Assembly: GCF_916858655.1 (NCBI RefSeq)
Contig: NZ_CAKASL010000001.1
Location: 62,001-126,000, forward strand
Length of the DNA: 64,000 nucleotides
Source of the DNA: Aeromicrobium sp. Leaf350
Lineage (GTDB): Bacteria > Actinomycetota > Actinomycetes > Propionibacteriales > Nocardioidaceae
Direction of reading: 5' to 3'
Shown: positions 45,851-64,000 of the stretch, piece by piece
Layout: the number at the start of each line of letters is the position of its first letter
Position numbering within the stretch: position 1 is the first letter of the stretch
Position numbers and translations under genes: made by a program
The notes under the pieces: generated by a model
Databases searched by the model: none
Seen by the model: the letters and a program-made list of their open reading frames with translations, nothing else
What the model was told of the DNA's origin: nothing

Positions 45851-46702
45851 TCAGCTCTCGGTCTCTTCCTCGTCGCGAGCCGAGTCCTCGGACGGCTCGT
45901 CACCCGGCTCCTCGTCGGAGTCGTCCGACGACGGCGCCTCGACGTCGTCGCCCGTGCCGAAGGCCTCGATCGCGTCGGCCATCGTGTCCTCCGCGGCTCC
46001 GACGGCGTCGACCACCGCCAGGTCCGCGGTGTTGTACTGCTCGCTGAACTCGAAGTAGTACGACTGGCCGCCGTCGAGCGAGGCCGCCATCTGGTTCAGG
46101 TTGTCGAGCACGTGCTGGAGCGCGGCGGAGGTCAGCTCGGCCGCCTCCTCGAAGCCGGCCGGCACCTCGACCGACTCGAAGGTGTCCTTGACGGCCTGCA
46201 TGCCCGGGATCGTCGCGTCACGGACGGGCTGGCCGCTGGAGAACGGACCCGTCCCGAGCAGCGTGCCCGGGGTGGTGCGGTCGAGCGCCACGACCGTGGC
46301 GTCCACGAACTCGGTCGTGTCGAGCGTGTCCTCGGCCAGCGTCGCGAGCGCGTCGAGGTCCTTCTCGAGATCCTGCTCGGCCTTCGCCGCCTCGACGTAG
46401 TCGTCGGAGTTCTCGCGACCGTACTCCGGGGCGTCGCCGATGGCCGGGATCTCCTCGACCGCTGCGTCGATGGCGTCGAGCGCCGAGGCGAGGTCGCTGC
46501 CGGCCTCGTCAGCCAGGATCTCGGCCTGCTCCTCGCGGAACGCCGCCACCTCGTCGAGGTAGTCGGCGGCCGCCCGGTCGGCAGCGGCGACGTCGTTCTT
46601 GTGGTTCTGGTGGATCACCAGCACCACGGTCGTGACCGCGACGGCCACGACGACCAGCAGCCCCAGGGCTGAGAAGAGGAGGATCTTCGCGCGCTTGCTC
46701 AT
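45851..46702 (-). CDS. membrane-anchored hypothetical protein (paralogue of next gene)
   Basis: The 283-residue protein has an N-terminal anchor (residues about 8-30) and a long extracytoplasmic helical domain beginning AADRAAADYLDEVAAFREEQ. An acidic Ser/Glu/Asp C-terminal tail of about 35 residues follows. The same opening occurs in the neighbouring gene, so the two are tandem paralogues. No family recognised. The start has CACGGT 6 nt upstream of ATG 46702. Confidence 0.75.
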   Translation of the reverse strand: MSKRAKILLFSALGLLVVVAVAVTTVVLVIHQNHKNDVAAADRAAADYLDEVAAFREEQAEILADEAGSDLASALDAIDAAVEEIPAIGDAPEYGRENSDDYVEAAKAEQDLEKDLDALATLAEDTLDTTEFVDATVVALDRTTPGTLLGTGPFSSGQPVRDATIPGMQAVKDTFESVEVPAGFEEAAELTSAALQHVLDNLNQMAASLDGGQSYYFEFSEQYNTADLAVVDAVGAAEDTMADAIEAFGTGDDVEAPSSDDSDEEPGDEPSEDSARDEEETES

Positions 46703-46777: not shown

Positions 46778-47584
46778 TCAGGCCGGAAGCGCGGCGTCGA
46801 CCGCGGCCGCGAGGTCGGAGTCGACGGTCAGGCCGAACACCCGGACCGCCTCGGCCGCGATCGCGATCTGGCTCCCGTAGCTGAAGGAGTAGTTCTGGCC
46901 GACGGCCGCGAACGCGACGAGCAGCTCGCACTGGTCGATCACGTTCTGCACCGCCGCCGAGACCGTCGCCGCCAGGTCCTCCTGCCCGCCCGGGACCGGG
47001 ACGGCCTCGAAGTCGGACAACGCCTCCTCGTACTCCGGGATCACGTCGCGCTCGACCACGCTCGCGTCGCGGATCGTCGACGACCCGGTGATCTCGTCGA
47101 TCCGCAGCGCCAGCACCGCGTCGGCGGCCGCGATGAACGTGCGCGCGACCGCGATGCGTCCGAGCACGTCGACGAGCTCGACGTACGGGTCCAGCAGGGT
47201 CGCCTCGAGGTACTGCGCGTCCCGATAGTCCTCCGACAGCTCCGCCCCGACTCCCCCGAGCGCCGGCAACGACGGCGGTGCCTCGATCCGGGCCTGCACC
47301 TGCGCCTGCAGGTCGGTGGGCGGGCCCTCGCGCCCGGCGGTGATGAGGTCGGTCAGCTCGTCGCGGAACGCCGCGACCTCGTCCAGGAACTCGGCGGCCA
47401 CCGCGTCGGCGTCCTCGCTCGCCCGCACCTGCCGCTGCTGCTCGACGATCACCAGCCCGCCGACGGCCACGAGCACCAGCGTCGTGACGAGCACGGGCAG
47501 GACCACGGCCAGTCGCCGCCAGCCGGACGCCCGCCGCTCCCGGTGGTCGTGCCTCGGGCGGTCGTGCCTCGGGTCCTCGGACAA
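46778..47584 (-). CDS. membrane-anchored hypothetical protein (paralogue of previous gene)
   Basis: A 268-residue protein with a single anchor (LAVVLPVLVTTLVLVAVGG) and an extracytoplasmic domain starting DAVAAEFLDEVAAFRDEL, very like its neighbour. The start is uncertain: a TTG at 47584 lies 2 bases after the cimA stop and would use translational coupling; otherwise an internal GTG just before the anchor is possible. The much longer upstream frame is a shadow of cimA. Confidence 0.6.
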   Translation of the reverse strand: MSEDPRHDRPRHDHRERRASGWRRLAVVLPVLVTTLVLVAVGGLVIVEQQRQVRASEDADAVAAEFLDEVAAFRDELTDLITAGREGPPTDLQAQVQARIEAPPSLPALGGVGAELSEDYRDAQYLEATLLDPYVELVDVLGRIAVARTFIAAADAVLALRIDEITGSSTIRDASVVERDVIPEYEEALSDFEAVPVPGGQEDLAATVSAAVQNVIDQCELLVAFAAVGQNYSFSYGSQIAIAAEAVRVFGLTVDSDLAAAVDAALPA

Positions 47585-47586
47585 GG

Positions 47587-49188
47587 TCAGCTCGCGGCCG
47601 GTGCCACCCCGTGCGCCCGCAGACCATAGGTCAAGGCGTCGGTGAGGGCGATCCAGGAGGCCTCGATGATGTTGGGCCCGACTCCGACCGTGACCCAGGA
47701 GTCCTTGCCGTCGGACGTCTCGATCAGGACCCGCGTGATCGCGTCGGTGCCGTGTCCCTGGTCGAGGATGCGCACCCGGAAGTCGGTCAGGTGGAACTGC
47801 GCGACGTCGGGGTACACCTGCTCGATCGCCTGGCGCAGCGCGTGGTCGAGCGCGTTGACGGGGCCGTTGCCCTCGCCGATCACCGCGAGCCGCTGGCCCC
47901 CGGCAACGATCTTGACCGTCGCCTCGGCGAGCGAGGCCTCGGCGATGACCCGCCACGACTCGATGTCGAAGTAGGTCGGTCGCGCTCCCTCGACCTCCTC
48001 CACGAGCAGCAGCTCGAACGAGGCGTCGGCCGCCTCGAACGTGTAGCCGGACTGCTCCAGCTCCTTGACGCGGTCGGTCAGTCGGGCCAGGCGCGCCGGG
48101 TCGTCGGTGAGGTCGAAGCCGAGCTCGCGACCCTTGAGCTCGATCGTCGCGCGGCCCGCCATCTCCGAGACGAGCAGCCGCATGTCGTTGCCCACCAGTG
48201 CGGGGTCGATGTGCTGGTACAGGTCGGGGTCGACGCGGATCGCGCTCGCGTGGAGACCGGCCTTGTGGGCGAACGACGAGACCCCGGTGTACGGCTGGCG
48301 TGCCGACGGCGGGTAGTTCGTGATCTCCGAGACCGCGTGCGCGATGCGGGTGGCCTCGGCGAGACGACCCGCGGGCAGCACCGGCCGGTCGAGCTTGAGC
48401 TCGAGGTTCGCGACACAGGTGACCAGGTCGGCGTTGCCGGTGCGCTCGCCGTAGCCGTTCAGGCAGCCCTGCAGGTGGGTGGCTCCCGCCAGCACCGCCG
48501 CCATCGAGTTCGCGACCGCGCACCCGGTGTCGTTGTGCGCGTGGATGCCGAGCCGGGCCCCGGTGGAGGCGGCGACGTCGGCGACGATCTCGCTCACCTG
48601 GTGCGGCAGCATCCCGCCGTTCGTGTCGCACAGCACCGCGACCTCGGCGCCCGCCTCGGTGGCCGCCCGGACGACCTCGAGCGCGTACGCGCGGTTGTCG
48701 AGGTACCCGTTGAAGAAGTGCTCCAGGTCGACGAAGACCCGCTGTCCCTCGGACCGCAGGTGCTGCACCGAGTCGCGCACCATCGCCAGGTTCTCCTCCA
48801 GCGTCGTGCGCAGCGCCAGCTCGACGTGACGGTCGTGGCTCTTGGCCACGAGCGTCACGACCGAGGCCCCCGACTCACGCAGCGCGGCGATCATGGGGTC
48901 GTCGGCCGCGACGGCGCCGGCCCGGCGGGTCGAGCCGAACGCCGCGAGCGTCGCGTGCCGCAGCTCGAGCTCCTTGGCCGCCAGGGCGAAGAACTCGGTG
49001 TCCTTCGGGTTCGAGCCCGGCCAGCCGCCCTCGATGTAGCCCACGCCGAGGTCGTCGAGGTGACGCGCGATGTGCATCTTGTCCTGCACGGAGAGGTTGA
49101 GGCCCTCCTGCTGGGCGCCGTCGCGCATCGTCGTGTCGTAGACGTGGAAGTCCCGGTCGACGCTGGTGGGGTCGGGGGTCGCGGTCAT
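47587..49188 (-). CDS. cimA: citramalate synthase
   Basis: CimA condenses pyruvate with acetyl-CoA to citramalate, feeding 2-oxobutanoate to isoleucine without threonine. The 533-residue protein has the DRE-TIM start VYDTTMRDGAQQEGLNLS, the HAHNDTGCAVANSMAAV metal site, and a C-terminal LeuA-type regulatory dimer domain (FRVRILDQGHGTDAITRV). AAAGGACC precedes the ATG at 49188. The mRNA leader holds an attenuator with an Ile-rich leader peptide. Confidence 0.9.
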   Translation of the reverse strand: MTATPDPTSVDRDFHVYDTTMRDGAQQEGLNLSVQDKMHIARHLDDLGVGYIEGGWPGSNPKDTEFFALAAKELELRHATLAAFGSTRRAGAVAADDPMIAALRESGASVVTLVAKSHDRHVELALRTTLEENLAMVRDSVQHLRSEGQRVFVDLEHFFNGYLDNRAYALEVVRAATEAGAEVAVLCDTNGGMLPHQVSEIVADVAASTGARLGIHAHNDTGCAVANSMAAVLAGATHLQGCLNGYGERTGNADLVTCVANLELKLDRPVLPAGRLAEATRIAHAVSEITNYPPSARQPYTGVSSFAHKAGLHASAIRVDPDLYQHIDPALVGNDMRLLVSEMAGRATIELKGRELGFDLTDDPARLARLTDRVKELEQSGYTFEAADASFELLLVEEVEGARPTYFDIESWRVIAEASLAEATVKIVAGGQRLAVIGEGNGPVNALDHALRQAIEQVYPDVAQFHLTDFRVRILDQGHGTDAITRVLIETSDGKDSWVTVGVGPNIIEASWIALTDALTYGLRAHGVAPAAS

Positions 49189-49206
49189 GGTGGGTCCTTT
49201 GGCAAC

Positions 49207-49247
49207 AAAAAAGCCCCCCGAGAATCGGGAGGCGGCGCGCTGGTTCC
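49207..49247 (-). terminator. cimA attenuator terminator and 3' arm of the pause hairpin
   Basis: On the minus strand a 9-bp stem (49233-49225 with 49221-49213, one G-U pair) with a 3-nt loop is followed by six U (49212-49207). This is an intrinsic terminator 19 nt before the cimA start. Immediately upstream, 49247-49234 pairs with 49270-49257 in the leader peptide coding region (12 of 14 pairs), forming the alternative hairpin. Confidence 0.85.
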
Positions 49248-49253
49248 TGTCGG

Positions 49254-49286
49254 TCAGGATCCGGCGCGCCCGGCAATGATGATCAC
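49254..49286 (-). CDS. cimA leader peptide (three consecutive Ile codons)
   Basis: A ten-codon ORF starts GTG ATC ATC ATT and ends TGA, reading M-I-I-I-A-G-R-A-G-S. GGAG lies a few bases upstream. Codons 6-10 form the 5' arm of the pause hairpin, so stalling at the Ile codons would open that stem. The cognate amino acid matches the CimA pathway product, isoleucine. It is shorter than any usual ORF cut-off. Confidence 0.8.
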   Translation of the reverse strand: MIIIAGRAGS

Positions 49287-49332
49287 GGTCTCCGTCGGAG
49301 GACACGCGGTCGTGAGGCTGGTCACGATCGTG

Positions 49333-49342
49333 AGTCTAGACT
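49333..49342. promoter_or_regulatory. shared palindromic -10 of divergent promoters
   Basis: AGTCTAGACT reads TAGACT on both strands (plus 49337-49342, minus 49338-49333). It would serve the cimA leader on one side and the gene at 49395 on the other, with leaders of about 40 nt each. Only one direction could be open at a time, so the two units may compete. Confidence 0.5.
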
Positions 49343-49394
49343 TCGAGCCGATGCTTGCCAAGACAGGGCACGACACGACCCGAGGGGCCGACCG

Positions 49395-50087
49395 ATGACC
49401 GTTCCCGTGCCGGATGCGCGCCACAGCCTTCACGCCGTCGTCACCGCACGACCGCTCGAGCCCGTCGAGGACGTGCCGGTCCCGCTGCCGTCGGAGGCGC
49501 TCCTGCGCCGCTTCGGCGCCGACGAGGCGCAGATCAAGGCGTTCGAGGCGCGACCCCACGCCCGCGTGCTGCACCGCTCGGGCCCGGTCGGCTCGGCCGC
49601 GACCGACGCCGTGGCCGCTCGCCGGGAGGCGCTCACCCTCGCCGCGCAGCACGACGGACTCGTGCTGGACCTGTCGGTGCCGCGCCTGGTGACCCACACG
49701 GTCGACGAGACCGACCCCCGCGCCCCGCGGCAGTGGGTCGCGCTCGACGTGGAGGGCGCCGGCCTCGAGGGCACCGACGTCGTCTCTCACGGGCTGACGA
49801 CGTTCGGCCTCCCCGAGCTGCGCTGCGCCGCGGTGCCGCTCCAGGAGCTGCCGGCCACGCTGGCTGTCCTGACCGGTCTCGCCCACCGCCTCCTGGTGGA
49901 GTGGCCCCAGAACGACCCCCTCGGCCGGGCCTCCGTGACGCTTGCCGACATCGCCACGGCGATGGGCGAGCCCGAGCCGCCCCGCCCGGACGACGGGGCC
50001 GGCTACGGCATCGACGTGCGCCTCAAGCTGCGCGGCGGCGAGCTCGCCGTGACGGTCCTCGGCGACGCCGCCGCGCTCTTCACCTGA
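49395..50087 (+). CDS. conserved hypothetical protein
   Basis: A 230-residue soluble protein with no motif I can name. It is found next to cimA or aspartase-like genes in actinobacteria and may be a housekeeping unknown. The ATG follows GAGGGG. Its 3' end overlaps the convergent aspA gene by 8 bp. Confidence 0.7.
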   Translation: MTVPVPDARHSLHAVVTARPLEPVEDVPVPLPSEALLRRFGADEAQIKAFEARPHARVLHRSGPVGSAATDAVAARREALTLAAQHDGLVLDLSVPRLVTHTVDETDPRAPRQWVALDVEGAGLEGTDVVSHGLTTFGLPELRCAAVPLQELPATLAVLTGLAHRLLVEWPQNDPLGRASVTLADIATAMGEPEPPRPDDGAGYGIDVRLKLRGGELAVTVLGDAAALFT

Positions 50088-54725: not shown

Positions 54726-55835
54726 TCAGACCAGGCGGGTCAGCCAGCCGTGGCGGTCCTCGGCCCGGCCGTACTGGATGTCGACCAGCGCAGCGCGGAG
54801 GTCGGCGGTGACCTTGCCGATGTCGCCGTCGGTGCTGACGACCTCGCCGCCGTTCCAGGCCAGCTTGCCGACCGGGGTCACGACCGCGGCGGTGCCGCAG
54901 GCGAAGACCTCGGTGATCTGGCCGCTCGCGACGCCGTCGCGCCACTCGTCGATCGAGACCTTGCGCTCGACGACCTCGTGGCCGAGGTCGCGGGCGAGCG
55001 TCAGGATCGAGTCGCGGGTGATGCCCTCGAGGATCGAGCCCGAGAGCTCCGGGGTCACGATGGATCCTTCGGACTGCACGAAGTACAGGTTCATGCCGCC
55101 GAGCTCCTCGACCCACCGGTTCTCGACGGAGTCCAGGAAGGCGACCTGCTCGCAGCCGTGGGCGAAGGCCTCCTGCTGCGGCAGCAGGCTCGCGGCGTAG
55201 TTGCCGCCGCACTTGGCGGCTCCGGTGCCGCCCAGCCCGGCGCGGGTGAACGTCTCCGACAACCAGATGTTGACCGGCTTGAGGCCCGCCTTGAAGTACG
55301 CACCGGCCGGCGAGGCGATGACCGAGTAGGTCACGTGCTGCGACGGCCGCACCCCGAGGAAGACCTCGGAGGCGAACATGAAGGGACGCAGGTACAGGCT
55401 GCGCTCCTCACCCGTGGGGACCCAGGCCCGGTCGGCCGCGACGAGCGACTCGATCGAACCGAGGAACCAGTCGGTGGGCAGCTCGGGCAGGGCCAGGCGG
55501 TGGGCGGAGCGGGCCAGCCGCTCGGCGTTCGCCTCGGGCCGGAAGCCCCAGACCGAGCCGTCGGCGTGGGCGTAGGCCTTGAGCCCCTCGAAGATCTCCT
55601 GCGCGTAGTGCAGGACCGCCGTGGCGGGATCGAGCAGCAAGGGGCCGTACGGCACGACGCGGCCGTCCTGCCACCCGCCCTCGGGGGTCCACTCGGACAG
55701 GAACATGTGGTCGGTGAAGTGGTTGCCGAACCCAGGGTCGGCCAGGATCGCCGCCCGCTCCTCGTCCGTGCGCGCAGCAGGGTTCTGGGTGAACGTGCTG
55801 GCGAACGGGGCAGGAGCGGTCGGTGTGGAGGTCAT
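54726..55835 (-). CDS. ilvE: branched-chain amino acid aminotransferase
   Basis: The 369-residue PLP enzyme transaminates the keto acids of Ile, Leu and Val. It shows the class IV motifs VWGFRPEANAERL, the Lys region, and EVFACGTAAVVTPVGKL. The ATG at 55835 is chosen over the GTG at 55844 because TACCGT lies 7 nt upstream. It follows leuB by 43 bp, so the pair form a branched-chain unit. Confidence 0.94.
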   Translation of the reverse strand: MTSTPTAPAPFASTFTQNPAARTDEERAAILADPGFGNHFTDHMFLSEWTPEGGWQDGRVVPYGPLLLDPATAVLHYAQEIFEGLKAYAHADGSVWGFRPEANAERLARSAHRLALPELPTDWFLGSIESLVAADRAWVPTGEERSLYLRPFMFASEVFLGVRPSQHVTYSVIASPAGAYFKAGLKPVNIWLSETFTRAGLGGTGAAKCGGNYAASLLPQQEAFAHGCEQVAFLDSVENRWVEELGGMNLYFVQSEGSIVTPELSGSILEGITRDSILTLARDLGHEVVERKVSIDEWRDGVASGQITEVFACGTAAVVTPVGKLAWNGGEVVSTDGDIGKVTADLRAALVDIQYGRAEDRHGWLTRLV

Positions 55836-55878
55836 GGAGTTCACGGTAATGCTTTCGGAGAAGGTGGGACAGGGACGG

Positions 55879-56958
55879 TCAGCCCACCGATACGCCTCCG
55901 GCCACGAGCGTTCCGATGGCCTCCCCCACCTCCTGCGTGGATCGAGGGCCGGTGGAGCCGCCGGCGCGGGCAGCGATGTCGGCCTCGACGGCGGTCGCGA
56001 TCTGCGCGGCGGCCTCGGGGTGGCCGAGGTGCTCCAGCAGCAGACCGGCCGACAGGATCGCAGCGGTGGGATCGGCCTTGCTCTGGCCCGCGATGTCGGG
56101 GGCCGAGCCGTGGACCGGCTCGAACATGCTCGGGGCGGTGCGGTCGGGGTTGACGTTGCCGCTCGCCGCCAGGCCGATGCCGCCCGTGACGGCGGCGGCC
56201 AGGTCGGTCAGGATGTCGCCGAACAGGTTGTCGGTGACGATGACGTCGAAGCGCGCCGGGTCGGTCGCCAGGAAGATCGTGGCGGCGTCGACGTGCAGGT
56301 AGTCGACCGAGACCTCCGGGAACTCCGTCGCCACGGCGTCGACCGTGCGGCTCCAGAGGTGGCCGGCGTGCACGAGCACGTTGTTCTTGTGCACGAGCGT
56401 GAGCTTGCGGCGCGGACGGGCCTGGGCGCGTGCGAACGCGTCGCGGACGACCCGCTCGACGCCGAAGGCCGTGTTGAGGCTGACCTCGGTCGCGACCTCC
56501 TGCGGCGTGCCGACGCGGATCGCGCCGCCGTTGCCGACGTACGGACCCTCGGTGCCCTCGCGGACGACGACGAAGTCGATGTCGCCCTTCGCGAGGACGC
56601 TCTCGGCGAGCGGGGTGGGCACCCCGGGGTACAGCTTCGACGGACGCAGGTTGACGTAGTGGTCGAGCTCGAAGCGCAGCTTCAGCAGCAGGCCGCGCTC
56701 GAGCACGCCGGACGGCACCGACGGATCGCCGACGGCACCGAGCAGGATCGCGTCCTGACCGCGGATCTCGTCGAGCACGGTCTGGGGAAGGGTCTCCCCC
56801 GTGGCGTGCCAGCGACGCGCTCCGAGGTCGTACTCGGTCCGGGCGAAGGCGAGGTCGTGCTGCGCCGCCACCTGGTCGAGGACTCGGAGTGCCTGCTCGG
56901 TGACCTCGGGGCCGATGCCGTCTCCGGCGACGACCGCAAGGTTGTACGTCTGCGTCAT
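55879..56958 (-). CDS. leuB: 3-isopropylmalate dehydrogenase
   Basis: LeuB oxidises and decarboxylates 3-isopropylmalate in leucine synthesis. The 359-residue protein begins [15 protein letters not shown] and carries [12 protein letters not shown]-like and [19 protein letters not shown] motifs. The latter is the Mg2+/substrate site. The ATG at 56958 is chosen over one at 56967 because TAGGAT lies 7 nt upstream. Upstream is a 33-codon ORF with its own leader. Confidence 0.94.
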
Positions 56959-57019
56959 GGTGATCATCCTACGGCCGCCGGTCTCAGATGCTGAAACTGG
57001 CGTCTCGTCCAGTGGATGG

Positions 57020-62775: not shown

Positions 62776-64000
<1,225 letters not shown>

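Follow-up and report, generated by a model that had tools for sequence, protein, structure and literature searches.

In the ilv, leu and trp attenuators of Enterobacteria, the position of the ribosome on cognate codons decides whether transcription terminates, and these systems combine strand exchange among several RNA segments with a leader whose translation is led by a Shine-Dalgarno sequence. The element that we describe here in front of cimA shares with them, as we propose for it, a dependence on where the ribosome stands on cognate codons, but differs in being made up of a probably leaderless open reading frame (ORF) and two abutting hairpins, P1 and the terminator hairpin T. The nearest published parallel is found in the ilvBNC operon of Corynebacterium glutamicum and the ilvB-II leaders of Corynebacterium (PMC11857589, PMC10272879). 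According to the published descriptions, these have in common with the cimA element a leader ORF with branched-chain codons, whose start lies beside the transcript start, and a hairpin that overlaps the leader ORF and is followed directly by an intrinsic terminator (PMC11857589, PMC10272879). In C. glutamicum ilvBNC, the bases of antiterminator and terminator are described as adjacent, with an overlap of GCC (PMC11857589); the element described here differs in its target, cimA, in its Ile codons, and in that P1 and T lie 0-2 nt apart without overlap. When the published description of the ilvB-II layout, an upstream ORF spanning P1 followed by P2 as terminator and a U tract, is set beside our own alignment, the cimA leaders are found to follow it, with the departure that the ORF ends just before P1 in 27/107 leaders.

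Within the same phylum, and following the same general logic, leaders have been described for actinobacterial ilvB, leuS, leuA, trp and cys genes (Seliverstov 2005, PMC1262725). For ilvB and leuS, that work describes a terminator preceded by cognate codons, and it reports no conserved structures upstream of other amino acid pathway genes in a genome set that included Streptomyces; the part of the text available to us does not mention cimA. It also relates that substitutions of the control codons in the Streptomyces coelicolor ilvB leader were without effect, which speaks against simple attenuation there, and that S. coelicolor leuA did not fit classical attenuation (PMC1262725). The leader peptides identified by RNA-seq in Streptomyces lividans include short leaderless ones such as IlvL, MRTRILVLGKRVG, to which an Aeromicrobium cimA leader, MTTFVIIIGKRV (L038), is similar; eight leaders are given in the available text, none of them assigned to cimA (PMC8079986). 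A search of the open-licence literature showed no cimA attenuator among the papers listed, the accessible portion of PMC3766115 mentioning neither cimA nor citramalate and that of PMC13158618 having no bearing on cimA attenuation. Leader-peptide attenuation of actinobacterial branched-chain genes is already known; cimA would be a new, and widespread, target of it.

The window, by which we mean the whole 64,000-nt stretch of Aeromicrobium sp. Leaf350 DNA that was analysed, carries on its minus strand a promoter, a short ORF, hairpin P1, terminator T with six U, a ribosome-binding site and cimA, in that order (Table 1). Citramalate synthase, the product of cimA, opens one route to isoleucine. 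The arrangement has two features expected of a leader-peptide attenuator: downstream of the promoter lies a short ORF containing codons for the end product, and an intrinsic terminator separates this ORF from cimA. An Ile-codon attenuator ahead of cimA had been proposed in the initial annotation of this sequence, and the layout, the covariation of P1 and T and the match between codons and gene, as set out below, all support that proposal, from which control by Ile-tRNA is a further step that we infer. The promoter, TTGGCA-17-TAGACT, is one of two sigma-70-like matches between positions 47000 and 51500, where shuffled sequences gave a mean of 0.0.

Table 1 Features of the cimA leader region in the window.
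Feature	Position	Strand	Basis or remark
-35 element TTGGCA	49356..49361	-	17-nt spacer to -10
-10 element TAGACT	49333..49338	-	promoter match
Leader ORF GTG...TGA, VTSLTTACPPTETVIIIAGRAGS, 23 codons	49254..49325	-	start 7 nt after -10
Control codons ATC ATC ATT (Ile-Ile-Ile)	49275..49283	-	inside leader ORF
Hairpin P1, proposed antiterminator	49234..49270	-	fold prediction, covariation
Intrinsic terminator hairpin T, 9 pairs, 3-nt loop, abuts P1	49213..49233	-	covariation
Terminator U tract, TTTTTT (six U)	49207..49212	-	sequence
AAAGGA, likely cimA ribosome-binding site	49195..49200	-	sequence
cimA, citramalate synthase (533 aa)	47587..49188	-	TIGR00977 equivalog, 635.9 bits vs cut-off 450

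Other genes of branched-chain metabolism are found near cimA. These include an ilvE-like class IV aminotransferase (54726-55844, minus strand), an isopropylmalate dehydrogenase-like gene (55879-56967, minus strand) and a ketol-acid reductoisomerase gene (62776-63801, minus strand), with ilvB about 0.5 kb past the end of the window. A family search also found ilvA over its cut-off in the same genome, so that cimA is not the sole possible entry into isoleucine synthesis. The ORF upstream of the leader (49395-50087, plus strand) runs divergently from cimA; searches of NCBIfam and Pfam at E <= 0.001 gave no family for this neighbour or for an ORF downstream of cimA (45851-46702, minus strand).

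The leader had been read initially as a ten-codon ORF, GTG ATC ATC ATT GCC GGG CGC GCC GGA TCC TGA (49286-49254, minus strand). The ATC ATC ATT codons and the frame hold, and the start moves: the frame is open upstream of 49286 as far as a GTG at 49325, which is the conserved start and gives 23 codons. In 44/44 Aeromicrobium cimA leaders, an ATG or GTG in the leader frame stands 6-8 nt past a TANNNT box, the -10 box being TAGACT in 33/44 and another TANNNT in the remaining 11; among NTG codons in the upstream regions of those 44 leaders, 45/513 stand 4-9 nt past such a box. A start at GTG 49286 with an SD-like GGAG was rejected because of this conserved spacing and because the relative L004, which has GTC at the same place, is without that GTG. 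Since the GTG at 49325 is only 7 nt past the -10 element, translation of the leader probably begins at the very 5' end of a leaderless transcript, whose start we place from this spacing.

The 119-nt leader folds with a predicted energy of -58.9 kcal/mol, compared with -43.2 +/- 3.7 for shuffled sequences (z -4.3; 0/200 as good). P1 is confirmed as a hairpin with its 5' arm in the leader ORF and ahead of a terminator, with 14 predicted pairs (7+2+5) and mismatches, and T proves to have the nine pairs and six U first noted for it. No nucleotide belongs to both P1 and T, and the predicted minimum-energy fold contains the two hairpins together. An alignment of 44 of the 52 leaders prepared (A1) was used to measure covariation, with ten pairs of P1 and eight of T as defined from the alignment; six Streptomyces-like leaders whose P1 contains a long insert (L102, L106, L110, L111, L112 and L124) were left out, as were L077 and L087. 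In A1, 94.9% of cells were paired, as opposed to 86.4% in shuffles (0/500), both sides had changed in nine pairs and 72 cells (a figure reached in 0/500 shuffles), and the covariation score was 0.296 versus 0.141 (0/500), while sliding P1 and T by 1-3 columns dropped pairing to 38.0-57.5%. The number of further pair types was unexceptional (22 vs 20.2; 91/500 shuffles). RNAalifold, unaided, predicts the same two helices. A scan of the 44 aligned leaders for 5-bp helices returned P1 in 44/44 and T in 44/44, together with register-shifted forms of them, and revealed no third conserved helix or classical antiterminator, the next bin standing at 12/44; nor was a conserved anti-antiterminator found in the cimA leaders. 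A covariance model (R1) built from 44 leaders matches the window's leader with an E-value of 9.8e-17, and no other site in the whole 3.5-Mb genome reaches E <= 0.01; because this leader is among the training rows, the strength of the match is partly by construction, and its uniqueness is not.

Strong cimA matches were identified in 48/49 Aeromicrobium genomes, the remaining one (83% complete) having a weak match only. Reading of the upstream regions revealed an Ile-codon ORF, P1 and T before cimA in 44/48, and the detector agrees. At the other four loci (L012, L015, L020 and L036, in genomes G007, G040, G027 and G019) there is no attenuator, and cimA starts about 7 nt past the -10 element, an arrangement that a deletion of the leader, fusing promoter and cimA, would produce. 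Two of these genomes, G007 and G040, keep a weak R1 match elsewhere, which in G007 lies just before ilvB.

We extended the comparison to a named set comprising the best 80 among at least 585 named relatives, which come from Aeromicrobium, Mumia, Nocardioides, Marmoricola, Actinomadura and allies, Jiangella, Phytoactinopolyspora, Janibacter, Cellulomonas, Streptomyces, Actinacidiphila and Kitasatospora, as well as metagenome-assembled genomes. Thirteen of the 80 (L051-L063) are Aeromicrobium and for the most part come from organisms that the genus set also covers. Within these best 80, P1 and T were detected in 80/80 loci, and in 80/80 an in-frame start (ATG or GTG) stands ahead of P1 together with Ile codons, of which 23 loci have three, 50 have two and seven have one. 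At one locus (L116) the detector chose the wrong P1; the usual P1 is visible there, and the row was dropped from the codon and geometry counts. Streptomyces accounts for 18 of the 80, all with the element. Among L099-L130, the Streptomyces, Actinacidiphila and Kitasatospora loci have an insert of about 40-50 nt in P1, apparently forming a hairpin of its own. Homologous leaders without Ile codons or stems had been named at the outset as the finding that would count against the proposal; leaders with both are found in 44/48 and 80/80 loci.

A survey of the class took in 116 cimA genes (E <= 1e-100) in 148 genomes. Among the matches listed, R1 was found 29-233 nt upstream of the start of the cimA profile at no fewer than 85/116 genes, and a locus on a split contig (L223) adds an 86th (86/116). 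No R1 match was seen, again among the matches listed, at 30/116, a number in which weak leaders may have been missed; inspection by eye of 22 of those 30 upstream regions, including those of G007 and G019, found the element in none. In eight element-less loci (L203-L208, L212 and L213), cimA follows directly on what looks like the 3' part of an ilvE ORF; at L209 and L214 cimA may itself be leaderless, as in Aeromicrobium G007 and G019. Together, the 30/116 class genes without an R1 match and the 4/48 genus loci without a leader imply that the element is dispensable.

Spacings were measured in 107 distinct leaders out of 123, after L116 had been dropped, with the leader frame taken as the frame richest in Ile beside P1. 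The end of the last Ile codon lies 5 nt from P1 in 81/107 and 8 nt in 19/107, and, with pairs extended maximally, the spacer between P1 and T is 0 nt in 78/107, 1 nt in 28 and 2 nt in one. The stop codon begins 7-23 nt inside P1 in 80/107 and 2-3 nt ahead of it in 27/107; that the leader coding sequence forms the 5' arm of P1, as initially described, is true of this locus but not of every leader. From ribosome footprints, the front of the ribosome can be taken to lie at +11 from the A site. A ribosome so placed at the stop codon would mask 4 nt or more of the P1 5' arm in 107/107 distinct leaders. With the first Ile codon in the A site, a stalled ribosome leaves P1 wholly free in 72/107 and reaches its first few nucleotides in 35/107; the run holds a single Ile codon in 8/107.

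The codons of the leaders were compared with the genes that they precede by choosing runs of Ile, Leu and Val by length, in any frame and blind to which of the three residues they contained. In 76 distinct cimA leaders these runs comprise 180 Ile and 54 Leu or Val codons, as against 20 Ile and 157 Leu or Val in 42 ilvB leaders and 26 Leu and two Ile in nine leuA or leuS leaders (Fisher 4e-43 for the contrast with ilvB and 3e-13 for that with leuA/leuS, shared ancestry being ignored). The Ile codons of the cimA leaders are a synonymous mix of ATC (109) and ATT (71), and at least one cimA leader has no Ile in its longest run. In the genome from which the window comes, the ilvB leader (L187, just outside the window) reads VHALLLVSV*. 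Of 31 Aeromicrobium genomes, 29 have ilvB; 24 of the leaders were examined, and a run with at least two Leu or Val codons is found in 24/24, with eight Ile codons in the runs. Across the sequences compared, leader codons thus follow the gene: Ile for cimA, Leu and Val for ilvB, and Leu for leuA and leuS.

These features, namely the layout, the spacings, the covariation of P1 and T, the gene-matched codons and the lack of any other conserved helix, were all found by sequence comparison and point to an element that is very probably a ribosome-mediated transcription attenuator, sensing charged Ile-tRNA and controlling cimA. We infer the transcription start, the stall, the mutual exclusion of P1 and T and the response to isoleucine as follows. 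Transcription would begin at or beside the start codon of the leader ORF, which would be translated without a 5' UTR. With Ile-tRNA plentiful, the ribosome would reach the leader stop, where its front would cover the 5' arm of P1 and leave the 3' arm unpaired; with P1 masked, T would close and transcription would end before cimA. With Ile-tRNA scarce, the ribosome would halt on the Ile codons and P1 could form ahead of it (wholly free in about two thirds of leaders), and P1, flush with T, would keep T from closing fully beside RNA polymerase, allowing read-through into cimA. P1 is likely the antiterminator because it is the only conserved structure that would differ between the two states, and because it abuts T. 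Since there is hardly any single strand between them, structural reasoning suggests that, as long as P1 is formed, T would be unable to close to its base in the RNA exit channel; as the two hairpins do not overlap and stand side by side in the predicted fold, it is on this steric argument that their exclusion rests.

The initial annotation saw P1 as a pause hairpin. The hairpin is there, but its role is more likely that of antiterminator, given that no other conserved helix competes with T. Were P1 merely to pause RNA polymerase so that the ribosome could catch up, a separate and unrecognised antiterminator helix would have to compete with T. The position of P1 is that of a 1:2 pause hairpin and P1 and T are thermodynamically compatible, yet we consider this arrangement unlikely, because P1 and T alone recur (44/44 each, with the next 5-bp helix bin at 12/44) and because a pause hairpin leaves the fixed spacing between P1 and T unexplained. 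It is also distinctly improbable that the leader RNA responds to a signal other than Ile-tRNA, such as a protein, ppGpp or growth rate, with the mini-ORF being incidental. In its favour are the S. coelicolor ilvB leader, which is reported not to react when its codons are substituted (PMC1262725), and the control of ilvB by ppGpp riboswitches in some bacteria (PMC10272879); against it stand the switch in codon identity with the gene product, the conserved spacing between the Ile codons and P1, and the lack of an Rfam match at gathering score in the window and the loci searched. An Ile T-box riboswitch was discarded, as no T-box covariance-model match was obtained: in searches for a T-box or riboswitch, Rfam gave no match at gathering score in the window and none at E <= 1 in eight loci, and over 13 loci it returned two sub-threshold matches only, to families other than T-box.

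In many leaders the Ile run is followed by RAG, as might be expected if the nascent leader peptide, rather than a shortage of tRNA, arrested the ribosome. However, in the 27/107 ORFs that stop just before P1 the downstream residues are gone and the nucleotides of the P1 arm are kept, which indicates that conservation there is at the level of RNA and makes control by an arrest peptide very improbable. A hairpin and U tract, taken alone, resemble any terminator, and might belong to an upstream transcription unit or, together with P1, have arisen by chance. This is barely credible here, as the upstream ORF (49395-50087) is divergent, a promoter lies between that ORF and the terminator, and the structures are conserved and covary over many genera; recurrence in 80/80 and 44/48 loci, with covariation, in the main refutes it. 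An Ile-tRNA-sensing attenuator with P1 as the likely antiterminator is accordingly the reading that we prefer.

The R1 model further picks up leaders of related form ahead of genes other than cimA. Of 30 phylum loci retrieved with it, ten hold cimA and 20 do not, 12/20 of the latter being ilvB by resemblance. In the class, we inspected 27 of the 65 listed R1 matches that lie away from an annotated cimA, and assigned the genes behind them through family searches for 13 and by resemblance for the others: eight precede ilvB, seven leuS, two leuA and eight a threonine ammonia-lyase-like gene, the remaining two being a cimA on a split contig and a gene without a name. The eight threonine ammonia-lyase-like cases come from a single family, f70, in which ten cimA genes were surveyed, none with an R1 match among those listed; 8/8 R1 matches retrieved from it (L229 and L235-L241) precede such a gene, which scores below equivalog cut-offs. 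Their leaders end in M-x-I-T in 7/8, and L235 has M-A-I-T and then further codons.

Outside the class (L146-L170), R1 matches with Leu, Val and Ile codons stand before ilvB in many cases, and a small ORF follows the leader in L146, L151 and L153. Leaders of this type also precede an isochorismatase-family gene in L147, L156 and L168 (PF00857 for L168, by resemblance for the others), a gene with no obvious tie to branched-chain metabolism. One further leader (L216/L242; G331:C6:196632-196722, minus strand), MFTPRIII*, is accompanied by P1 and a terminator and scores 51 bits; the gene behind it gave no Pfam family in the single frame tried.

Tentatively, and without favouring the idea, we suggest that these leaders might form one re-codable attenuator family for branched-chain genes across Actinomycetota, in which a hairpin would sterically block an abutting terminator with no strand exchange. 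Its chassis would comprise a leaderless mini-ORF, a stop at or in a GCGCG-based hairpin and a flush terminator, and its codons would be Ile for cimA, Ile, Met and Thr for the threonine ammonia-lyase-like gene, Leu for leuA and leuS, and Leu, Val and Ile for ilvB.

The cimA attenuator is likely to be an end-product switch for the actinobacterial citramalate route to isoleucine, and its recurrence at 86/116 of the class cimA genes surveyed suggests that this switch is widespread. Because the RNA frame is kept and its sensor codons vary from one target gene to the next, such leaders offer a comparative test of leader-peptide control, and they raise the mechanistic question of whether a hairpin that merely abuts a terminator can prevent it. 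The element may also provide a point of intervention for isoleucine-linked production in Streptomyces and its relatives.
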